Shown here piece by piece: positions 2,970 through 34,545 of a stretch of 64,000 nt of DNA. The first letter of the stretch is position 1, and the number at the start of each line of letters is the position of its first letter. Source of the stretch: Oxalobacteraceae bacterium (GTDB lineage Bacteria > Pseudomonadota > Gammaproteobacteria > Burkholderiales > Burkholderiaceae_D); contig JAJTGE010000007.1 in the NCBI GenBank assembly GCA_021298555.1, forward strand, positions 1 through 64,000. The letters are read 5' to 3'. The notes beneath the pieces were generated by a model that was given only the letters and a program-made list of their open reading frames with translations, searched no databases and was not told the DNA's origin. The translations under genes and the position numbers were made by a program.

Positions 2970-4187
2970 ATGAAGATTCTCGTAGCGCATAACCGCTATC
3001 GCTTTCGGGGCGGCGAAGACACCGTCGTTGATGCAGAAGTTGAATTACTAAGGCGCCATGGTCACGAAGTGCTGGTTTATCTTCGTGATAATCGTGAAAT
3101 AAGCAGCATGAAGGTCCATGAGTTAGCTATTCAAACCGTGTGGTCGTCAAAAGTTATAAATGATGTACTTAAATTAGCGGGTCAATTTAAGCCAGATCTT
3201 ATACATGCTCACAATATCTTCCCCTTAATTTCGCCATCACTTTACTCAGTAGCAAGTCGATTCAACATTCCCATCATACAAACGCTGCATAATTTTCGGC
3301 TAGTGTGTCCTCAAGCGACTTTGCTGCGCCGTGGACAGCATTGTGAAGATTGTCTTGGAAATTCGCCCTGGCGTGCAATTCTCCATCGCTGCTATCGAGA
3401 TTCGTTACCGCAATCGGCGGTAACTGCTAGCATGATCATGATGCATCGATTCCTGCGTACCTGGCAGCGTAAAGTCACGCGCTACATCGTATTAAATCAA
3501 GTCTGCCGCGATAAATTTATTGAAGGCGGCTTGCCTTTTGAGCGACTTCGAATTAAACCCAACTTTACAGAATCCACTAAAGAGCCACAGTGGCAGCATC
3601 GTCGTGGCGGACTTTTTGTGGGCCGTCTATCGGTAGAGAAAGGTCTTAATGTGCTTGCCGAAGCACTGATTGATTTACCCGGTGTCGTTATTTCCGTTTA
3701 CGGAAAAGGCGATATGCAATCGTTTGTCGAAAAGACGCTGGGCTTTAATTACGGTGGTTTTCAAGAAGCACGGCAACTACAAGCGCGTCTGCATGAAGCA
3801 GCTTATTTAGTAGTTCCCAGCACAGGAATGGAAAGCTTTGGCTTAGTCGCAATTGAGGCATTTGCTTGTGGAACACCTGTTATCGCTAGTGCTCACGGTG
3901 GTTTACGAGAGATAGTCGTGCATGGAAAAACCGGGCTTTTAGTTGAGCCAGGTAATTCACAAGCATTGGCCCGTGCCATAGCCTACGCTGAAACTCATCC
4001 AGAAAAAATGAAGGCTATGGGTCAGGCAGCCAGGCAAGCGTACTTAACAAAGTACACACCCGACATTAATTACCATTTATTGATGACTATCTATCGTGAA
4101 GCACTGCAATCACTTAAAAGCACAACTGCACAGGCTCTGCCCTCAAAACGATTAGGCGCGATAGATCAGCAAAAAACGATCTATTAA
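2970..4187 (+). CDS. Glycosyltransferase family 4 protein
   Basis: GT-B features: LFVGRLSVEKGLNVL, PSTGMESFGLVAIEAFACGTPVIAS. Confidence 0.9.
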   Translation: MKILVAHNRYRFRGGEDTVVDAEVELLRRHGHEVLVYLRDNREISSMKVHELAIQTVWSSKVINDVLKLAGQFKPDLIHAHNIFPLISPSLYSVASRFNIPIIQTLHNFRLVCPQATLLRRGQHCEDCLGNSPWRAILHRCYRDSLPQSAVTASMIMMHRFLRTWQRKVTRYIVLNQVCRDKFIEGGLPFERLRIKPNFTESTKEPQWQHRRGGLFVGRLSVEKGLNVLAEALIDLPGVVISVYGKGDMQSFVEKTLGFNYGGFQEARQLQARLHEAAYLVVPSTGMESFGLVAIEAFACGTPVIASAHGGLREIVVHGKTGLLVEPGNSQALARAIAYAETHPEKMKAMGQAARQAYLTKYTPDINYHLLMTIYREALQSLKSTTAQALPSKRLGAIDQQKTIY

Positions 4188-4211
4188 TTTCTACTACATA
4201 CCGTTTTTAAC

Positions 4212-5345
4212 ATGCCCAAACTTGCACTGGTAGTCAACGAACCTCCTCCGTATCGAATTCCTATATTTAATCGCGTAGCTGCTTCGGCAAATATCGACTT
4301 AAAAGTTATTTTCTTTTGTAAGCATGAGCCTAATCGTTTATGGAATTTACCTGAGATAAAATTCAATCATGAATTTTTACGTGAACGTATCTATAACGTA
4401 AACGGTCGGTACATACATAACAATCCGGATGTAATTTTTGCACTCGGGCGATTTGATCCCGATGTGGTGATTGGTAATGGATTTAATCCCACCCATTTGT
4501 ACGCAATGCTATGGACTATGCTGCGCAGGCGGGCCTATGTGCCTATGACGGACGGCACATTGCAGTCTGAAATAGGTCTTAGCCGCATTCATCGCTGGTT
4601 ACGTAGTTTTGCCTACGCTCGTAGCCCAGCATTTATCGCAGCGAGTCAGGGTGGTATGGAACTGTATAAGCATTACGGTGTAAAAAAAGAGCGTTGTTAT
4701 CAATCGTGCTTATGCATTGATAACAACCGCTATGATTCACCTTCACTACAATCACAGAAAAAAATATGGGATTTTATTTTTTGTGGGCGCTTAGAACCTG
4801 CTAAATCGCCTGATTTTTCATTACAGGTAGCAGCGCGCTGTGCGCAGCGATTGGGGCGACGTGTAAGTATCCTGATGGTGGGTTCAGGCAGCATGGAGAC
4901 ATCATTACACACTCAAGCACATGCATTACGCGAGCTGATTGAGGTTAGTTTTAGCGGTTTTGCCAAGCAAGAAGAATTGCCACGATTGTATAAATCAGCA
5001 AAATTATTTTTATTTCCTACCAAAGCCGATGTGTGGGGCGTGGTTGCCAATGAGGCGTGTGCGGCTGGTTTACCCGTACTAATATCGCCCTATGCTGGAG
5101 CCGCTGGCGAATTAATCATCGATGGGAAAAATGGTTTTATTCGAGAGCTGGATGCCGATGCCTGGGCTGATTGCGCCATACGTTTACTACAAAATGACCG
5201 GCGGCGTGAAGCCTTCGGCCAGCATTCACAACTGCTCGTAAAACCCTTTGATTTTGAAGCGGCAGCACGAGGCATTATTGATGCCACGCTATCAGCTTAT
5301 TACGCTAAAACCGAAAGTCAGACGGATGTCAGGCGACCTGCCTGA
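4212..5345 (+). CDS. Glycosyltransferase (GT-B, GT4-like)
   Basis: FCGRLEPAKSPDFSL, FLFPTKADVWGVVANEACAAGLPVLIS. Confidence 0.88.
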   Translation: MPKLALVVNEPPPYRIPIFNRVAASANIDLKVIFFCKHEPNRLWNLPEIKFNHEFLRERIYNVNGRYIHNNPDVIFALGRFDPDVVIGNGFNPTHLYAMLWTMLRRRAYVPMTDGTLQSEIGLSRIHRWLRSFAYARSPAFIAASQGGMELYKHYGVKKERCYQSCLCIDNNRYDSPSLQSQKKIWDFIFCGRLEPAKSPDFSLQVAARCAQRLGRRVSILMVGSGSMETSLHTQAHALRELIEVSFSGFAKQEELPRLYKSAKLFLFPTKADVWGVVANEACAAGLPVLISPYAGAAGELIIDGKNGFIRELDADAWADCAIRLLQNDRRREAFGQHSQLLVKPFDFEAAARGIIDATLSAYYAKTESQTDVRRPA

Positions 5346-6190
5346 TAATCCATAATAGCCTGCTCTATTTCTGCGACGGTATTCATAACAAACGGTCCGT
5401 ACTGAACTATGGGTTCGTTCAAAGGCCGCCCTGCCAGCAGTAAAAATCGAGCAGCCGATACACCGGCTACAAATGTCGCATGGTCACCATCGGTTAATAC
5501 CATGCCGCTGTGGGTAGGAAACATCGTTGCATGGTCGGCTATACCCAGCGTACCTTCAAAAAGATAAGCCATAGAATTATGACCACGTGATATCGGTATC
5601 GTTACGCTGGCGCCAGCAGGAAGCTGTACATCAAGGTAGAGAGGGTCTGTTGTTAATCCAGCGATCGGACCTTGAGTGATCTCACTGTCATAATCTAGGC
5701 TACCTGCAATTACTTTGATGCTTACGCCATCATTCAATATTTTTACTGGAATTTCTTCTGGCAAGATATCTTTATAGCCCGCCGGCTTCATTTTTTCTTT
5801 CGCGGGCAGATTAATCCACAGCTGAAAACCCCGCATGCGCCCTTCTTCTTGCTGCGGCATTTCTGAATGTATGATCCCCCGCCCTGCCGTCATCCATTGC
5901 ACTCCTCCACTTTTTAAATCACCTTGATTACCCAGATGATCTTCATGACGCATATGACCGTCGAGTATGTAGGTAACCGTTTCAAAACCACGGTGTGGGT
6001 GCGACGGAAAGCCCGCAATATAGTCGCCTGGGTTTACAGACGAAAATTCATCTAGCATCAGAAAAGGATCTAAGCGGGTAGATTCACCACTACCTAAACT
6101 ACGCCTAAGTCTGACGCCCGCACCATCCGATGTATTTAGCGCAGGAATAACGCGTGCAACTGTACGGGGTTGAGAAGAGGCTGTTGACAT
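5318..6190 (-). CDS. Pirin family protein
   Basis: PHPHRGFETVTYILDGHMRHEDHLG, QWMTAGRGIIHSEMP. Confidence 0.93.
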   Translation of the reverse strand: MSTASSQPRTVARVIPALNTSDGAGVRLRRSLGSGESTRLDPFLMLDEFSSVNPGDYIAGFPSHPHRGFETVTYILDGHMRHEDHLGNQGDLKSGGVQWMTAGRGIIHSEMPQQEEGRMRGFQLWINLPAKEKMKPAGYKDILPEEIPVKILNDGVSIKVIAGSLDYDSEITQGPIAGLTTDPLYLDVQLPAGASVTIPISRGHNSMAYLFEGTLGIADHATMFPTHSGMVLTDGDHATFVAGVSAARFLLLAGRPLNEPIVQYGPFVMNTVAEIEQAIMDYQAGRLTSV

Positions 6191-6208
6191 TGCGCGATCC
6201 TTATATTG

Positions 6209-6916
6209 TTAGAGTAGTTTTAATTGGTCCGGCTGTAGAAAACACCATTCACCTTCGTTTAGTTTTAGTGATTCCAGCGTCAAGCTACCGATGGCAATGC
6301 GTTGCAAAGCAGAGCAATGATTTCCTGCGGCTGCCAGCATGCGTTTGACTTGATGATATTTACCCTGCTCCACCACAATTTCCAGTTGATACTCACCGCG
6401 CGCTATGCACGTCACAGCCGCCAGTGATTGTTGTTCATCATGCAGAACAACGCCTTTGAGCAAGGACTCCATTAGTTTTTGTGTAACGGGTTCTGCGGTA
6501 GTCGCAAGATACAACTTCGGCACATGCCGCTTCGGTGAAGACATCGCATGATTGAACGCGCCATCATCCGACAATAATAATAATCCGGTGGTATCGTGGT
6601 CTAGGCGACCTATGGCCTGTACATCGCGCCAGTCAAATTGCTCAGGCAGCAAAGTCATTACGCCAGGATGGCTGCTAGGTTTACGCGAACACTCAATACC
6701 TGCAGGCTTGTTTAGCGCAATATAGACATGCTCACGGTAAGTCCATTCTTCTTCGAATAGTCGAAATTGCAAATCCAGCAGCTCGACTTCCTGTTTGTAG
6801 TCGGTAACGACCTGGCCGTGGATGCTCAATTCCCCATCGTCTATCAGCTGACGGCAATATTTACGCGTCCCAAAGCCTTGGGATTGAAGCATGCGATCAA
6901 GAGTAGTTTTCTTCAT
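6209..6916 (-). CDS. rsuA: 16S rRNA pseudouridine synthase, RsuA family
   Basis: S4-like N-terminus; GRLDHDTTGLLLLSDDG motif. Confidence 0.85.
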   Translation of the reverse strand: MKKTTLDRMLQSQGFGTRKYCRQLIDDGELSIHGQVVTDYKQEVELLDLQFRLFEEEWTYREHVYIALNKPAGIECSRKPSSHPGVMTLLPEQFDWRDVQAIGRLDHDTTGLLLLSDDGAFNHAMSSPKRHVPKLYLATTAEPVTQKLMESLLKGVVLHDEQQSLAAVTCIARGEYQLEIVVEQGKYHQVKRMLAAAGNHCSALQRIAIGSLTLESLKLNEGEWCFLQPDQLKLL

Positions 6917-31044: not shown

Positions 31045-31869
31045 ATGAATGGCATTCAACAATGGGGCGGCTATAGCGGTCAGCAGTTAGCACCGCAGGG
31101 TCTGCTAGGTAGCATGATCGGTGGAACATTAGGAGGCATAGCCGGAAGTGAGCTCGGTGGCTTGGCAGGCAATGCAAATTGGGGCAATCAGCTAGGTCAA
31201 ACGCTGGGTGGAATCGGCGGCGCACTTCTTCCGTTTCAAATGGATCCGATAACGCAGGCTTATGCACAGCAGCAGCAACTTGCACCACAAGGATTTTTCG
31301 GTAACCTGATAGGACAAATAGGGCGTCCACTGGGTAGCACCATAGGCGGCATCTTTGGTCGATCAGGTTTAGGCGGTCAAATAGGAAACGTCGCTGGTCA
31401 GTTGGGTCGTTTACTACCGTTTCAGGCCGATGCGATTCAACAAGCCAACGCAATTCAACAAGCCAACGCAATTCAACAGCAACTGCAGCAACTGCAGCAG
31501 CTTCAACAACTCCAGCAACTCCAACAACAACAGCAGCAGTTAATGCCGCAAGGTGTGTATGGCAATTTTCTGGGGCAAATAGGACAACCGGTTGGTGCAG
31601 CCATAGGCGGTATTTATGGCCAGCCTGCGTTGGGTGGAGCTATCGGTAACTTGGTCGGACAAGTTGGTCGGCTGATGCCATTCCAAACGGATGCACTACA
31701 ACAAGCCTGCGCGCAGCAGATGCAACAACTACAGCAACTTCAGCAACTACAACAGATGCAGCAATTGCAGCAACTCGCGCAGCAGATCGCACAACAACAA
31801 CAGCCTTATCAAACCTACCAAGGTGGAATTCAACAAGGCTATGCAGGATCGCAGCAAACGCTGCATTGA
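31045..31869 (+). CDS. Triple glycine-zipper repeat protein with Gln-rich linkers, unknown function
   Basis: Three about 60-aa repeats PQGxxGxxIGx...GGxxG...GxxxGQxLGxLxPFQxD separated by QQLQQLQQ tracts; AGGAG RBS 5 nt before ATG 31045 (upstream ORF start 30997 not supported). Confidence 0.85.
   Translation: MNGIQQWGGYSGQQLAPQGLLGSMIGGTLGGIAGSELGGLAGNANWGNQLGQTLGGIGGALLPFQMDPITQAYAQQQQLAPQGFFGNLIGQIGRPLGSTIGGIFGRSGLGGQIGNVAGQLGRLLPFQADAIQQANAIQQANAIQQQLQQLQQLQQLQQLQQQQQQLMPQGVYGNFLGQIGQPVGAAIGGIYGQPALGGAIGNLVGQVGRLMPFQTDALQQACAQQMQQLQQLQQLQQMQQLQQLAQQIAQQQQPYQTYQGGIQQGYAGSQQTLH
31435..31545 (+). repeat. In-frame tandem repeats (ATTCAACAAGCCAACGCA, then CAACTGCAG/CAR codons)
   Basis: Direct reading; encodes IQQANA IQQANA IQQQLQQLQQLQQLQQLQQQQQQ. 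Confidence 0.9.
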
Positions 31870-31893
31870 TTGGCGGTATATCAACACTAGCTT

Positions 31894-31914
31894 CCTGCCG
31901 CTTTATGCGGCAGG
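31894..31914 (+). other. Intercistronic hairpin CCTGCCGC-TTTAT-GCGGCAGG
   Basis: Perfect 8-bp stem, 5-nt loop, only a weak T-run after. Confidence 0.75.
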
Positions 31915-31934
31915 ATTTCTAGACAGGACATCGT

Positions 31935-32198
31935 ATGCAGACACTCGAAGAAAAATCCGGCTCTGGTCGCTATCTGATTAGTTGCGTTAACCCCGACAAA
32001 CTGAATGAGTTCATCAGTACCGGCTATGAAGATCCATCAATACAGTTGATCGATACCGTTGGACCGATAGGCTCACCTCATACCGCTGTGTATGAGATGT
32101 CCCATGCTAAAGCTGCGCAGCTCAAACAACTATTTAGCACCGTCGGTGAGCTAAAAATCGAGGCTGACCAATCATTGTCAATGTTTGAAAAACAGTAA
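31935..32198 (+). CDS. Stand-alone protease-propeptide-like (I9-like) protein, paralogous to the prodomain of the next gene
   Basis: 87 aa; aligns by eye to residues about 58-152 of the S8 protease: G[RQ][YF]LI, DPSIQLIDTVGP / SPDIEIIDRVGP, TAVYEMSHAKAAQL / TAVLVARMTDDKARSL, GELKIEADQSLSMF / GQLIVERDQPLQLL. Confidence 0.78.
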   Translation: MQTLEEKSGSGRYLISCVNPDKLNEFISTGYEDPSIQLIDTVGPIGSPHTAVYEMSHAKAAQLKQLFSTVGELKIEADQSLSMFEKQ

Positions 32199-32232
32199 TT
32201 CCTTATCGGTCGATTAATGGGAAAGGACTACC

Positions 32233-34146
32233 ATGGCTAGCAAATCGGAGTCATCTGCAACTGAAACGCAAAGTAGTACAAGTGCGGCATCAGATACCAG
32301 TGGTGCGCAGAGCGGTGCATCAAGCACTACAACTGCTGCGGCCTCTGGCACCTCATCTGCCAGCGCTCAAGGAGGTAAAACACGCGAACTAAAGCAACGC
32401 AAAGGCCAGTTTCTGATTGCGCCGCGACGTAATCCACAAATGCAAATGATGGGGCTGTCCCCTATGCAGTTTTCTGCTGTCGAACAGGCCTTGCGAGAAA
32501 GTCCTGACATAGAAATCATCGATCGTGTTGGACCTAAGCATGCGGTTGGAACGCTGGCAACGGGCATGCCCGACAGCACCGCTGTGCTGGTGGCACGCAT
32601 GACTGACGACAAGGCGCGTTCACTCTCCCTGCAAGCACAAGGACAACTCATCGTCGAGCGCGATCAGCCATTGCAGCTGCTCGACGTTAATTACCCACAG
32701 GTGTCGCTCGTGAACTGCAATCTACCCACGACAGGTACTGCATTCACAGCAGAATTTCTTGTGCTGGGCAATGGCAATCCTGTTAAAGATGCCGAAGTCT
32801 ATTTGTTTGGTGGTTTGCTTCCCGCAACCGGTATCACGGATGCCAAGGGTCGCGTTAAGCTCAGCCTTATCGGTGAAACAGCGCAAAGTTTGCGACGGCT
32901 TTACGTAAAGCCACGCATGGATTACTGGAGCTTTAGTCAGGAACAACCCGACGTCAGTAACAGCGAAGTCAATGTCATAGGATTGCGCGCCCTCTCCGAC
33001 TGGCCTGCATTAGCGAATTTCCCACAACAACAGCAACTGACTTGGGGCCAGAAAGCAATGCGCTTGGATCAGCTGCCTGCACATTATCGCGGTCAAGGTA
33101 TACGTATTGCGATCGTTGATTCGGGTACAGCAACCAGTCATCAAGATCTAGTAAAAATCACCCGTGGTTATGACATCATCAATAAAACGCTTGATGCCAG
33201 CAGCTGGAGTGTAGATACCCTTTCTCATGGCTCTCATTGCGCTGGTGTCATCGCAGGTAAAGATTCAAGCTGGGGCGTACGGGGCTTTGCTCCTGAAGCA
33301 GAAATCCATACCTGCAAGCTCTTCCCCGGCGGTCAAATTAGTCAATTGATAGAAGCGCTCGAATACTGCATTGAAAAACAAATCGATGTCGTCAATCTGA
33401 GTCTGGGCGGTGCTGAACCTTCCGAGGCACTCGAGCAGCAAATCATACGTGCCAAACAAGCAGGAGTAGCATGCATAGTCGCTGCGGGTAATTCATCCGG
33501 CGCGGTGCAGTATCCGGCGTCGTCGCCCAATGTCTTGGCCGTGGCTGCGATAGGTCGCATTAATGAATTTCCACCCGATAGCTACCATGTGCAGAGCCTA
33601 ACGCCGCAAGTCGATGCCAATGGTTATTTTGCTGCGCGATTTAGTTGCTTTGGACCCGAGGTTGGCGTGTGCGCGCCAGGTGTAGCGATTACATCGTCTG
33701 TGCCAGAGAATAACTTTGCTGCATGGGATGGCACCTCCATGGCTGCGCCACATGTCACAGGGTTAGCTGCTTTAGTGCTGGCACACCATCCCGAGTTTCA
33801 AGCGGCAGTTGGTCAGCGCAGTGCTGAACGCGTTGATCGACTTTTTCAACTCATTAAAATGTCATGCCGTCAGGTGGTTCCAGGTGATCAGCGACGCACA
33901 GGGTACGGTTTGCCGGATGTAGTACGCGCCGTGGGTCTTGCACCTACCTATTCAACACAGATGATGGGTGCCGGTATGGGTACGCCCATGCTGCAAGCCT
34001 TGGCCAATGCCTACCGAGAACCACCCCGCTTAATGCCACAGCCCATGACTATGGGCATGGGTGCGTTTGATCCCTACGGGCAGTTTCGGCCTTATGTATC
34101 CAGTCCTATGACTATCCCAAGTGGATACACCTTCGGCTTGTGGTGA
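32233..34146 (+). CDS. Subtilisin-like S8 family serine protease with Ser/Thr/Ala-rich N-terminus, prodomain and Met/Pro-rich tail
   Basis: Catalytic triad motifs AIVDSG, SHGSHCAGVIAG, DGTSMAAPHVTG; oxyanion region AAGNSS. Confidence 0.95.
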   Translation: MASKSESSATETQSSTSAASDTSGAQSGASSTTTAAASGTSSASAQGGKTRELKQRKGQFLIAPRRNPQMQMMGLSPMQFSAVEQALRESPDIEIIDRVGPKHAVGTLATGMPDSTAVLVARMTDDKARSLSLQAQGQLIVERDQPLQLLDVNYPQVSLVNCNLPTTGTAFTAEFLVLGNGNPVKDAEVYLFGGLLPATGITDAKGRVKLSLIGETAQSLRRLYVKPRMDYWSFSQEQPDVSNSEVNVIGLRALSDWPALANFPQQQQLTWGQKAMRLDQLPAHYRGQGIRIAIVDSGTATSHQDLVKITRGYDIINKTLDASSWSVDTLSHGSHCAGVIAGKDSSWGVRGFAPEAEIHTCKLFPGGQISQLIEALEYCIEKQIDVVNLSLGGAEPSEALEQQIIRAKQAGVACIVAAGNSSGAVQYPASSPNVLAVAAIGRINEFPPDSYHVQSLTPQVDANGYFAARFSCFGPEVGVCAPGVAITSSVPENNFAAWDGTSMAAPHVTGLAALVLAHHPEFQAAVGQRSAERVDRLFQLIKMSCRQVVPGDQRRTGYGLPDVVRAVGLAPTYSTQMMGAGMGTPMLQALANAYREPPRLMPQPMTMGMGAFDPYGQFRPYVSSPMTIPSGYTFGLW

Positions 34147-34189
34147 CCTTGATAGGCTGTAGGGAAACCACTTTGATGTGAGGATATTC

Positions 34190-34513
34190 ATGAAACACAC
34201 GCAACGCGATCGTCAATCACCAACCCAGTCCTATGATGAAACCTATGATCCGAATCGGCTGCTAGATACTTTGCGTGAGCGCATGCATTTGAAAAATGAT
34301 GCCGCCTTATCCAGAGCGCTGGAAGTCGCTCCGCCTGTCATTAGCAAAATACGTCATCGCACCTTGCCAGTAGGAGCTTCTTTGCTCATACGTATGCACG
34401 AAGTGACGCAGTTAAGTATTCGTGATCTGCGCGATTTGATGGGGGATCGTCGGGCGCGCTATCGTGTTTCGGATACCCAAGGAAAACAAAAACGAAAAAT
34501 GATGAATGCTTGA
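34190..34513 (+). CDS. Small HTH (XRE-like) putative regulator
   Basis: LKNDAALSRALEVAPPVISKIRHRTLPVGASLLIRMHEVTQLSIRDLRDLMGDRR; ATG 34190 preceded by GTGAGG. Confidence 0.7.
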   Translation: MKHTQRDRQSPTQSYDETYDPNRLLDTLRERMHLKNDAALSRALEVAPPVISKIRHRTLPVGASLLIRMHEVTQLSIRDLRDLMGDRRARYRVSDTQGKQKRKMMNA

Positions 34514-34516
34514 TTA

Positions 34517-34545
34517 CAGGGAGTGCTGTTAACAGCACTCCCCTG
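34517..34545. terminator. Perfect 24-bp palindrome, possible bidirectional terminator between convergent genes
   Basis: GGGAGTGCTGTTAACAGCACTCCC at 34519-34542; no strong T-tract. Confidence 0.55.

Follow-up and report, generated by a model that had tools for sequence, protein, structure and literature searches.

REP, P87 and S8: a conserved gene set of Oxalobacteraceae that may pair a restrained subtilase with a glutamine-rich repeat protein

Four same-strand genes, one of them encoding a subtilisin-like protease, raise the question of whether they form one system and what the protease acts on. They occupy positions 31045 to 34513 of a 64,000-nucleotide stretch of DNA, hereafter the window, from contig JAJTGE010000007.1 of an Oxalobacteraceae bacterium. 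Their products are a Gln/Gly-rich repeat protein (REP), a stand-alone propeptide-like protein of 87 residues (P87), a subtilase (S8), and a small helix-turn-helix (HTH) protein. The original prediction, made from the DNA letters, had listed four genes, and all are confirmed as intact open reading frames at these positions, each with a plausible ribosome-binding site ahead of it as read from the sequence. We find that REP, P87, and S8 form a conserved set with the HTH gene outside it. We tentatively read REP-P87-S8 as a protease-substrate module, in which a cytosolic subtilase, restrained by an inhibitor, would be reserved for an abundant repeat protein of low complexity, and we give this reading slightly less than an even chance. 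The features of the set are listed below.

31045..31869, + strand: REP, 274 residues, Q/G-rich and nearly uncharged, with three units, poly-Q linkers, and C-terminal -TLH
31087..31248, + strand: REP unit 1 (LAPQG...LLPFQMDP), from the profile built from 217 units
31279..31434, + strand: REP unit 2 (LAPQG...LLPFQADA), from the same profile
31540..31695, + strand: REP unit 3 (LMPQG...LMPFQTDA), from the same profile
31893..31915, + strand: stem-loop in the REP-P87 gap, TCCTGCCGC-TTTAT-GCGGCAGGA, from shuffle energies and compensatory changes
31935..32198, + strand: P87, stand-alone, propeptide-like, 87 residues, predicted beta-alpha-beta-beta-alpha-beta, C-terminal IEADQSLSMF
32233..34146, + strand: S8 subtilase, 637 residues, with a Ser/Thr/Ala/Gly-rich N-terminus, prodomain, immunoglobulin-like (Ig-like) domain, catalytic domain, and low-complexity tail ending in W
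32398..32688, + strand: S8's own prodomain, P87 homologue by hidden Markov model (HMM) and hhalign
32740..32997 (approximate limits), + strand: Ig-like or carboxypeptidase-regulatory-like domain of S8, a weak match below the Pfam cut-offs
33091..33909, + strand: S8 catalytic domain, D296-H332-S502 with N420, from Pfam and conserved columns

The linkage of the three genes was inspected at increasing taxonomic distance. In the window's genus, REP homologues and S8 share the same 17 of 21 genomes, and the order REP-(P87)-S8-HTH is found wherever contigs permit. Across the family Oxalobacteraceae, P87 is present in 65 of 295 genomes and S8 in 70, nearly always together. The mismatches are two contig breaks (G001, G015), one divergent locus (G062), a three-genome loss clade (G003, G004, G010) in which REP and S8 lie too close together to leave space for P87, and one decayed locus (G094), where S8 is truncated and a remnant of P87 is left. 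This last copy belongs to a Massilia-like genome (L207 8684-9500). When GTDB contigs were scanned independently with the P87 profile, 54 loci emerged, every one of them from Oxalobacteraceae or unnamed relatives, namely Massilia, Duganella, Rugamonas, Noviherbaspirillum, one record labelled Herbaspirillum, and uncultured lineages. S8 follows P87 in all 54 and REP precedes it in 53, the remaining locus (L119) being truncated by the contig end. Gene neighbourhoods (40 compared) vary between genera, and general conservation of the chromosome therefore does not account for the order of the three genes. The Massilia and Duganella loci share a chromosomal neighbourhood. In the S8 tree the sequences cluster by genus, a pattern that fits old vertical inheritance with losses. 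Outside the family, a profile search found P87 in none of 368 other genomes of the class, the S8 N-terminal region was absent from about 376 other genomes of the order, and whole S8 was absent from 248 other sampled genomes of the phylum at 1e-60; phage records yielded general subtilases only. The proposed four-gene grouping therefore holds for REP, P87, and S8, which co-occur in a fixed, operon-like order throughout the Oxalobacteraceae loci examined, and fails for the HTH gene.

S8 matches Pfam Peptidase_S8 (PF00082) at 4.5e-41. Residues D296, H332, N420, and S502 fall in columns that are invariant or nearly so among 33 homologues, and the D-H-S triad with the oxyanion Asn places the predicted enzyme in peptidase family S8. 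The earlier description of an intact subtilisin-like protease is upheld by this match and these columns; it had missed S8's own prodomain, the Ig-like domain, and the stem-loop between REP and P87. CarboxypepD_reg and Big_1 are weakly matched by 12 of 18 S8 members, and nearly all S8 proteins end in W. The N-termini of REP, P87, and S8 are not hydrophobic by Kyte-Doolittle hydropathy, the one measure used, and the predicted lack of signal peptides holds for all three by this measure. Assignment to the type VII mycosins was rejected (TIGR03921, 116 bits against a cut-off of 279).

We then compared P87 with the S8 prodomain. The P87 HMM matches the window's S8 at 32467-32685 (3e-8), and profile-profile alignment of the two by hhalign gives a probability of 98 and an E value of 2.4e-13. 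AlphaFold2 predicts a propeptide-like topology for both, P87 being modelled as E-H-E-E-H-E with a mean predicted local distance difference test (pLDDT) score of 79.6. This beta-alpha-beta-beta-alpha-beta arrangement is the topology of subtilisin propeptides and stand-alone I9-type inhibitors (PMC6993865). As judged by these profiles, P87 is homologous to S8's own prodomain, and the prodomain-like character first proposed for it is supported by HMM, hhalign, and predicted fold alike. Two sister Noviherbaspirillum species carry P87 as an in-frame extension of the S8 N-terminus, a natural fusion (L124 7944-10349; L126 7956-10310), and MAFFT aligns P87 rows onto the S8 prodomain. The AlphaFold2 model of the fusion has its P87, prodomain, and Ig-like parts formed and its catalytic domain poor (mean pLDDT 57.7), for which reason we make no claim of P87 docking on S8. 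The end of P87 reads IEPDxPLS[LM]F, with LS[LM]F six residues past the IEPD aspartate in most members and often within one to three residues of the protein end. The matching place in the S8 prodomain reads VERDQxLxL[LMH]. In subtilisin, such a prodomain end occupies the active site. We infer that P87 inhibits S8.

REP consists of three units of about 52 residues each with Gln-rich linkers between them. The profile of 217 units begins LAPQG[WF]FGN..., carries many spaced glycines, and ends [ML]LPFx[AV]DP. In later units, the starting Pro, Gln, and Gly and the terminal Leu-Pro-Phe are kept in about 98-100%; the mean identity of later units is 84%, and it is at least 90% in 8 of 21 REP proteins. 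Complete REPs contain about 22% Gln, 19% Gly, 2% acidic, and 2% basic residues, and almost all of them end in T[LVIM]H. At the unit ends LP[FL] is near-invariant over the 217 units, one REP group having FSPL at the LPF position. The presumed P4-P1 residues are MLPF, LLPF, ILPF, or FLPF, overall [MLIFV]LPF. Subtilisin prefers a hydrophobic P4 and a large hydrophobic P1, and AAPF is its standard substrate. The REP unit ends fit this preference, and the conserved LxPFQxD ends noted at the outset are borne out in that LPF is near-invariant and suited to the P4-P1 sites. For REP and P87, the models of Pfam, NCBIfam, and PADLOC gave no informative match; the Pfam hits of REP to FAM222A and DUF5832 were set aside as probable low-complexity artefacts.

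A strong stem-loop is present in every REP-P87 (or REP-S8) gap examined. Over 68 gaps, some of them near-duplicates from genomes sampled twice, the mean z against dinucleotide shuffles is -3.6, with 85% below -2 and the observed energy reached by 48 of 1360 shuffles; the window stem-loop has a z of -7.8. The stem-loop sequence is variable with little primary-sequence conservation, and compensatory stem changes occur (CTGCCG/CGGCAG to CTGTCG/CGACAG, and CCTCCG/CGGAGG to CCTTCG/CGAAGG). It persists in loci in which P87 is lost or fused. As a T-run follows it in just 5 of 68 gaps, mRNA processing or 3' stabilisation is likelier than simple termination. In the window, the gap between P87 and S8 and that between S8 and the HTH gene lack such a structure, and no Rfam family matches the intergenic stem-loop. 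In other operons, the ratio of subunits is set by intergenic stem-loops (PMC4423207), and this one, by analogy, is expected to set REP in excess.

These observations suggest the following mechanism. The Q/G-rich, uncharged, glycine-zipper REP would be made in excess, as suggested by the conserved stem-loop after its gene, which would limit or uncouple expression of P87 and S8, and from its composition REP may self-associate in the cytosol. S8 would fold with its own prodomain. P87, a diverged copy of that prodomain, would bind the active site via its C-terminal LS[LM]F and keep mature S8 inactive. Once P87 is outcompeted or removed, S8 would cut REP after the [ML]LPF of each unit, as subtilisin specificity suggests, and the units would thereby be matured, disassembled, or released. 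Strict linkage and order, co-occurrence, P87-prodomain homology, the fusion, the LS[LM]F end, LPF, the stem-loop, Q-rich neighbours, and the vertical tree all speak for this mechanism.

Distant relatives of S8 show which of these features extend beyond the module. The divergent locus of G062 (L204 7965-11730) has an S8 at 40% identity after a Q-rich repeat protein, whose units differ (APQGFDFGS...SADPQ) and which ends in TVH; it also has a stem with a T-run, and between the Q-rich protein and S8 an 80-residue protein with no significant similarity to P87. A second S8 of G267 (L206 8135-10309), like that of L204 a divergent paralogue within Oxalobacteraceae, follows a different Q-rich repeat protein. 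Two Streptomyces plasmids each encode a full-length S8 relative (37% identity) with a Q/G-rich protein before it (L216 5030-7578; L217 ~4000-6500). The distant loci being Q-rich without P87 or LPF, the Q-rich partner appears to be the wider trend, seen at a handful of loci, and P87 and LPF appear to be family-level features. It is possible, if rather doubtful, that a subtilase clade with a prodomain and an Ig-like domain at its N-terminus serves as dedicated partner to low-complexity, Q-rich, self-assembling proteins of more than one bacterial phylum (Oxalobacteraceae, Streptomyces). The two would then make up a prion-like assembly inside the cell under proteolytic control, to which Oxalobacteraceae would add a stand-alone prodomain copy and a stoichiometry-setting stem-loop.

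Further observations concern the surroundings of these relatives. L206 lies close to a gene pair resembling those for polyketide synthases and non-ribosomal peptide synthetases (PKS/NRPS). Alphaproteobacterial S8 relatives have an 80-residue protein directly after S8, and an Ig-like-domain S8 is followed by an unnamed protein of 77-83 residues in L218 3641-5390, L219 3788-5387, L220 3482-5284, and L251 4639-6444, which is possibly another stand-alone propeptide-like partner. On the Agrobacterium plasmid pTiCFBP5877, the other neighbour of S8 is a CHAT-domain protein. The proteins of about 80 residues beside distant subtilases (L204, Rhizobium, Agrobacterium, Paracoccus, Duganella) show no significant sequence similarity to P87.

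Several observations weigh against the protease-substrate reading. Foldseek matches P87 to generic ferredoxin-like folds, with no subtilisin propeptide among the 50 matches listed, and as this fold is common to many proteins, the P87 fold alone is not diagnostic. Pfam I9 is unmatched by all 53 P87 members searched; described stand-alone I9 members likewise lack significant sequence similarity (PMC6993865). The maximum 19-residue hydropathy of REP is 0.6-1.4, under the classical membrane threshold. The Q-rich partners of distant S8 relatives are without LPF, and in REP itself LPF could be conserved for packing and not for cutting. In the three loss-clade genomes, decay has reached the zippers and LPF ends of REP, which retains its N-terminus, Gln-rich body, and -TLH, and S8 is intact; the S8 residues changed in this clade (5 conserved columns versus 0-5 in other pairs) are uninformative. 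As a single evolutionary event, this loss ties the putative inhibitor P87 to the zipper-LPF part of REP; as S8 and a Q-rich REP are retained without LPF, it also shows that S8 is kept for more than LPF cutting.

The loss clade bears directly on the main rival, in which a cytosolic assembly of Q-rich REP would recruit and concentrate S8, P87 would restrain it, LPF would serve packing, and the substrates would be other (housekeeping, stress, or defence) proteins. The S8 and Q-rich REP that this clade keeps without LPF speak for such a scaffold, and among distant relatives it is a Q-rich protein that regularly accompanies S8, and neither P87 nor LPF. Moreover, REP-like stretches in the low-complexity tails of 3 of 57 S8 proteins score above all 1140 shuffles, but this similarity is weak and confined to three sequences, and LP[FL] is conserved beyond apparent packing needs. 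We regard the scaffold as unlikely. Less likely again is a multi-core precursor, from which S8 would free secreted, bacteriocin-like glycine-zipper peptides against competitors, with P87 protecting the producer by controlling S8. Tandem near-identical, glycine-rich units with LPF ends and a stem-loop 3' of the structural gene would suit such a precursor, but the units show no clear diversification, their hydropathy is low as given above, and the three loss-clade relatives and the distant Q-rich partners do without LPF. Nor was an exporter, leader, modification, or immunity gene recognised among the clusters recurring over the 40 neighbourhoods, in which most neighbours have no profile annotation.

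Two further readings place the action at or outside the membrane. Export of REP and S8 by an unrecognised route, with the two building or trimming an extracellular matrix, would give a role to the conserved C-termini (-TLH and -W), but these could equally well be interaction motifs, and neither a signal peptide nor a linked transporter was recognised; the chance of this is slight. Slighter still is that of a gasdermin-like anti-phage or cell-death module, in which infection would free S8 from P87 and the cut REP units would permeabilise the membrane. S8 does resemble the PADLOC 'subtilase' (1e-25) and IetS (1e-10) models, and its spread over family genomes is patchy. Against this, inheritance is vertical, the Massilia and Duganella loci sit in a shared neighbourhood instead of varied islands, and no sensor domain or recognised defence partner was seen, IetA ATPase being absent from the window's neighbouring open reading frames. 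The protease-substrate reading remains the one we prefer.

The HTH gene and a palindrome complete the locus.

34190..34513, + strand: HTH protein, genus-specific neighbour outside the conserved core
34519..34542, strand not assigned: perfect palindrome of 24 nucleotides, 3' of the HTH gene, without a T-run, a possible terminator or stabiliser

ATG at 34190 is the most likely start of the HTH gene, and the palindrome is exactly as first described. No Pfam or NCBIfam model names the HTH protein above its cut-off. The protein belongs to a highly conserved, multicopy group: of 146 Oxalobacteraceae genomes, 132 have it, with as many as 14 copies in one genome, and the window's own genome has four. 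Only in the window's genus does it come after S8; in other genera it is not beside S8, and in G007, a genome without an S8 hit, a close copy adjoins the same ADH gene (L203). As a ubiquitous paralogue of genus-limited position, with a copy that stands without S8, it was rejected as a system component, and its proposed role as regulator of the unit is not borne out; at most it may regulate locally, in a single genus. The wide spread of this protein group in Oxalobacteraceae relatives is itself unexplained.

The REP-P87-S8 set is undescribed in the open-access literature searched, a scope that left out most subscription papers and all preprints. If our reading is true, P87 would be, as far as the searches show, the first example from bacteria of a stand-alone propeptide-like protein whose gene adjoins that of the subtilase it resembles and is related to, and REP would represent a new repeat-protein class as a likely subtilase client. 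The module could offer a simple model for keeping an active cytosolic subtilase safe and for the processing of a low-complexity Gln-rich protein, and its presence in cultured Massilia, Duganella, Rugamonas, and Noviherbaspirillum species puts it within bench reach.

Known systems share single elements with the module. In cyanobactin pathways, the PatA/PatG subtilase is encoded beside the multi-core precursor PatE, whose repeated units end in a fixed motif. S8 and REP resemble this pairing of a subtilase with a repeated-unit precursor; unlike it, the module has no recognised cyclase or transporter, and its PatA/PatG model score is 33 bits against a cut-off of 421. QhpE, a subtilisin-like protease, serves the maturation of quinohemoprotein amine dehydrogenase and is devoted to a protein encoded with it. 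S8 as read here would be similarly dedicated, but no qhp genes were seen, and the score is 77 against a cut-off of 165 for QhpE (named in PMC7876137). The anti-phage system IetAS has an S8 catalytic domain in IetS, but contains no REP or P87, and the IetS model gives 29 bits against a cut-off of 900. An intergenic stem-loop like that of the REP-P87 gap is known from the cellulosome operon, where it acts by selective RNA processing and stabilisation (PMC4423207); the stoichiometry effect is a prediction here. Closest to P87 are the stand-alone I9-type inhibitors and mimics, namely yeast peptidase B inhibitor, Pleurotus peptidase A inhibitor 1, Arabidopsis subtilisin propeptide-like inhibitor 1, TgMIC5, and Plasmodium SUB1-ProM (PMC6993865). 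Like P87, the stand-alone inhibitors of MEROPS I9 are small separate proteins of prodomain topology, and SUB1-ProM is likewise encoded beside subtilases. P87 differs from them in being bacterial, in its detectable homology to the neighbouring protease's prodomain, and in lacking a Pfam I9 hit, its inhibition being predicted only. The novelty of REP-P87-S8 rests on its composition and not on an established mechanism, the protease and the P87 fold being of known kinds.

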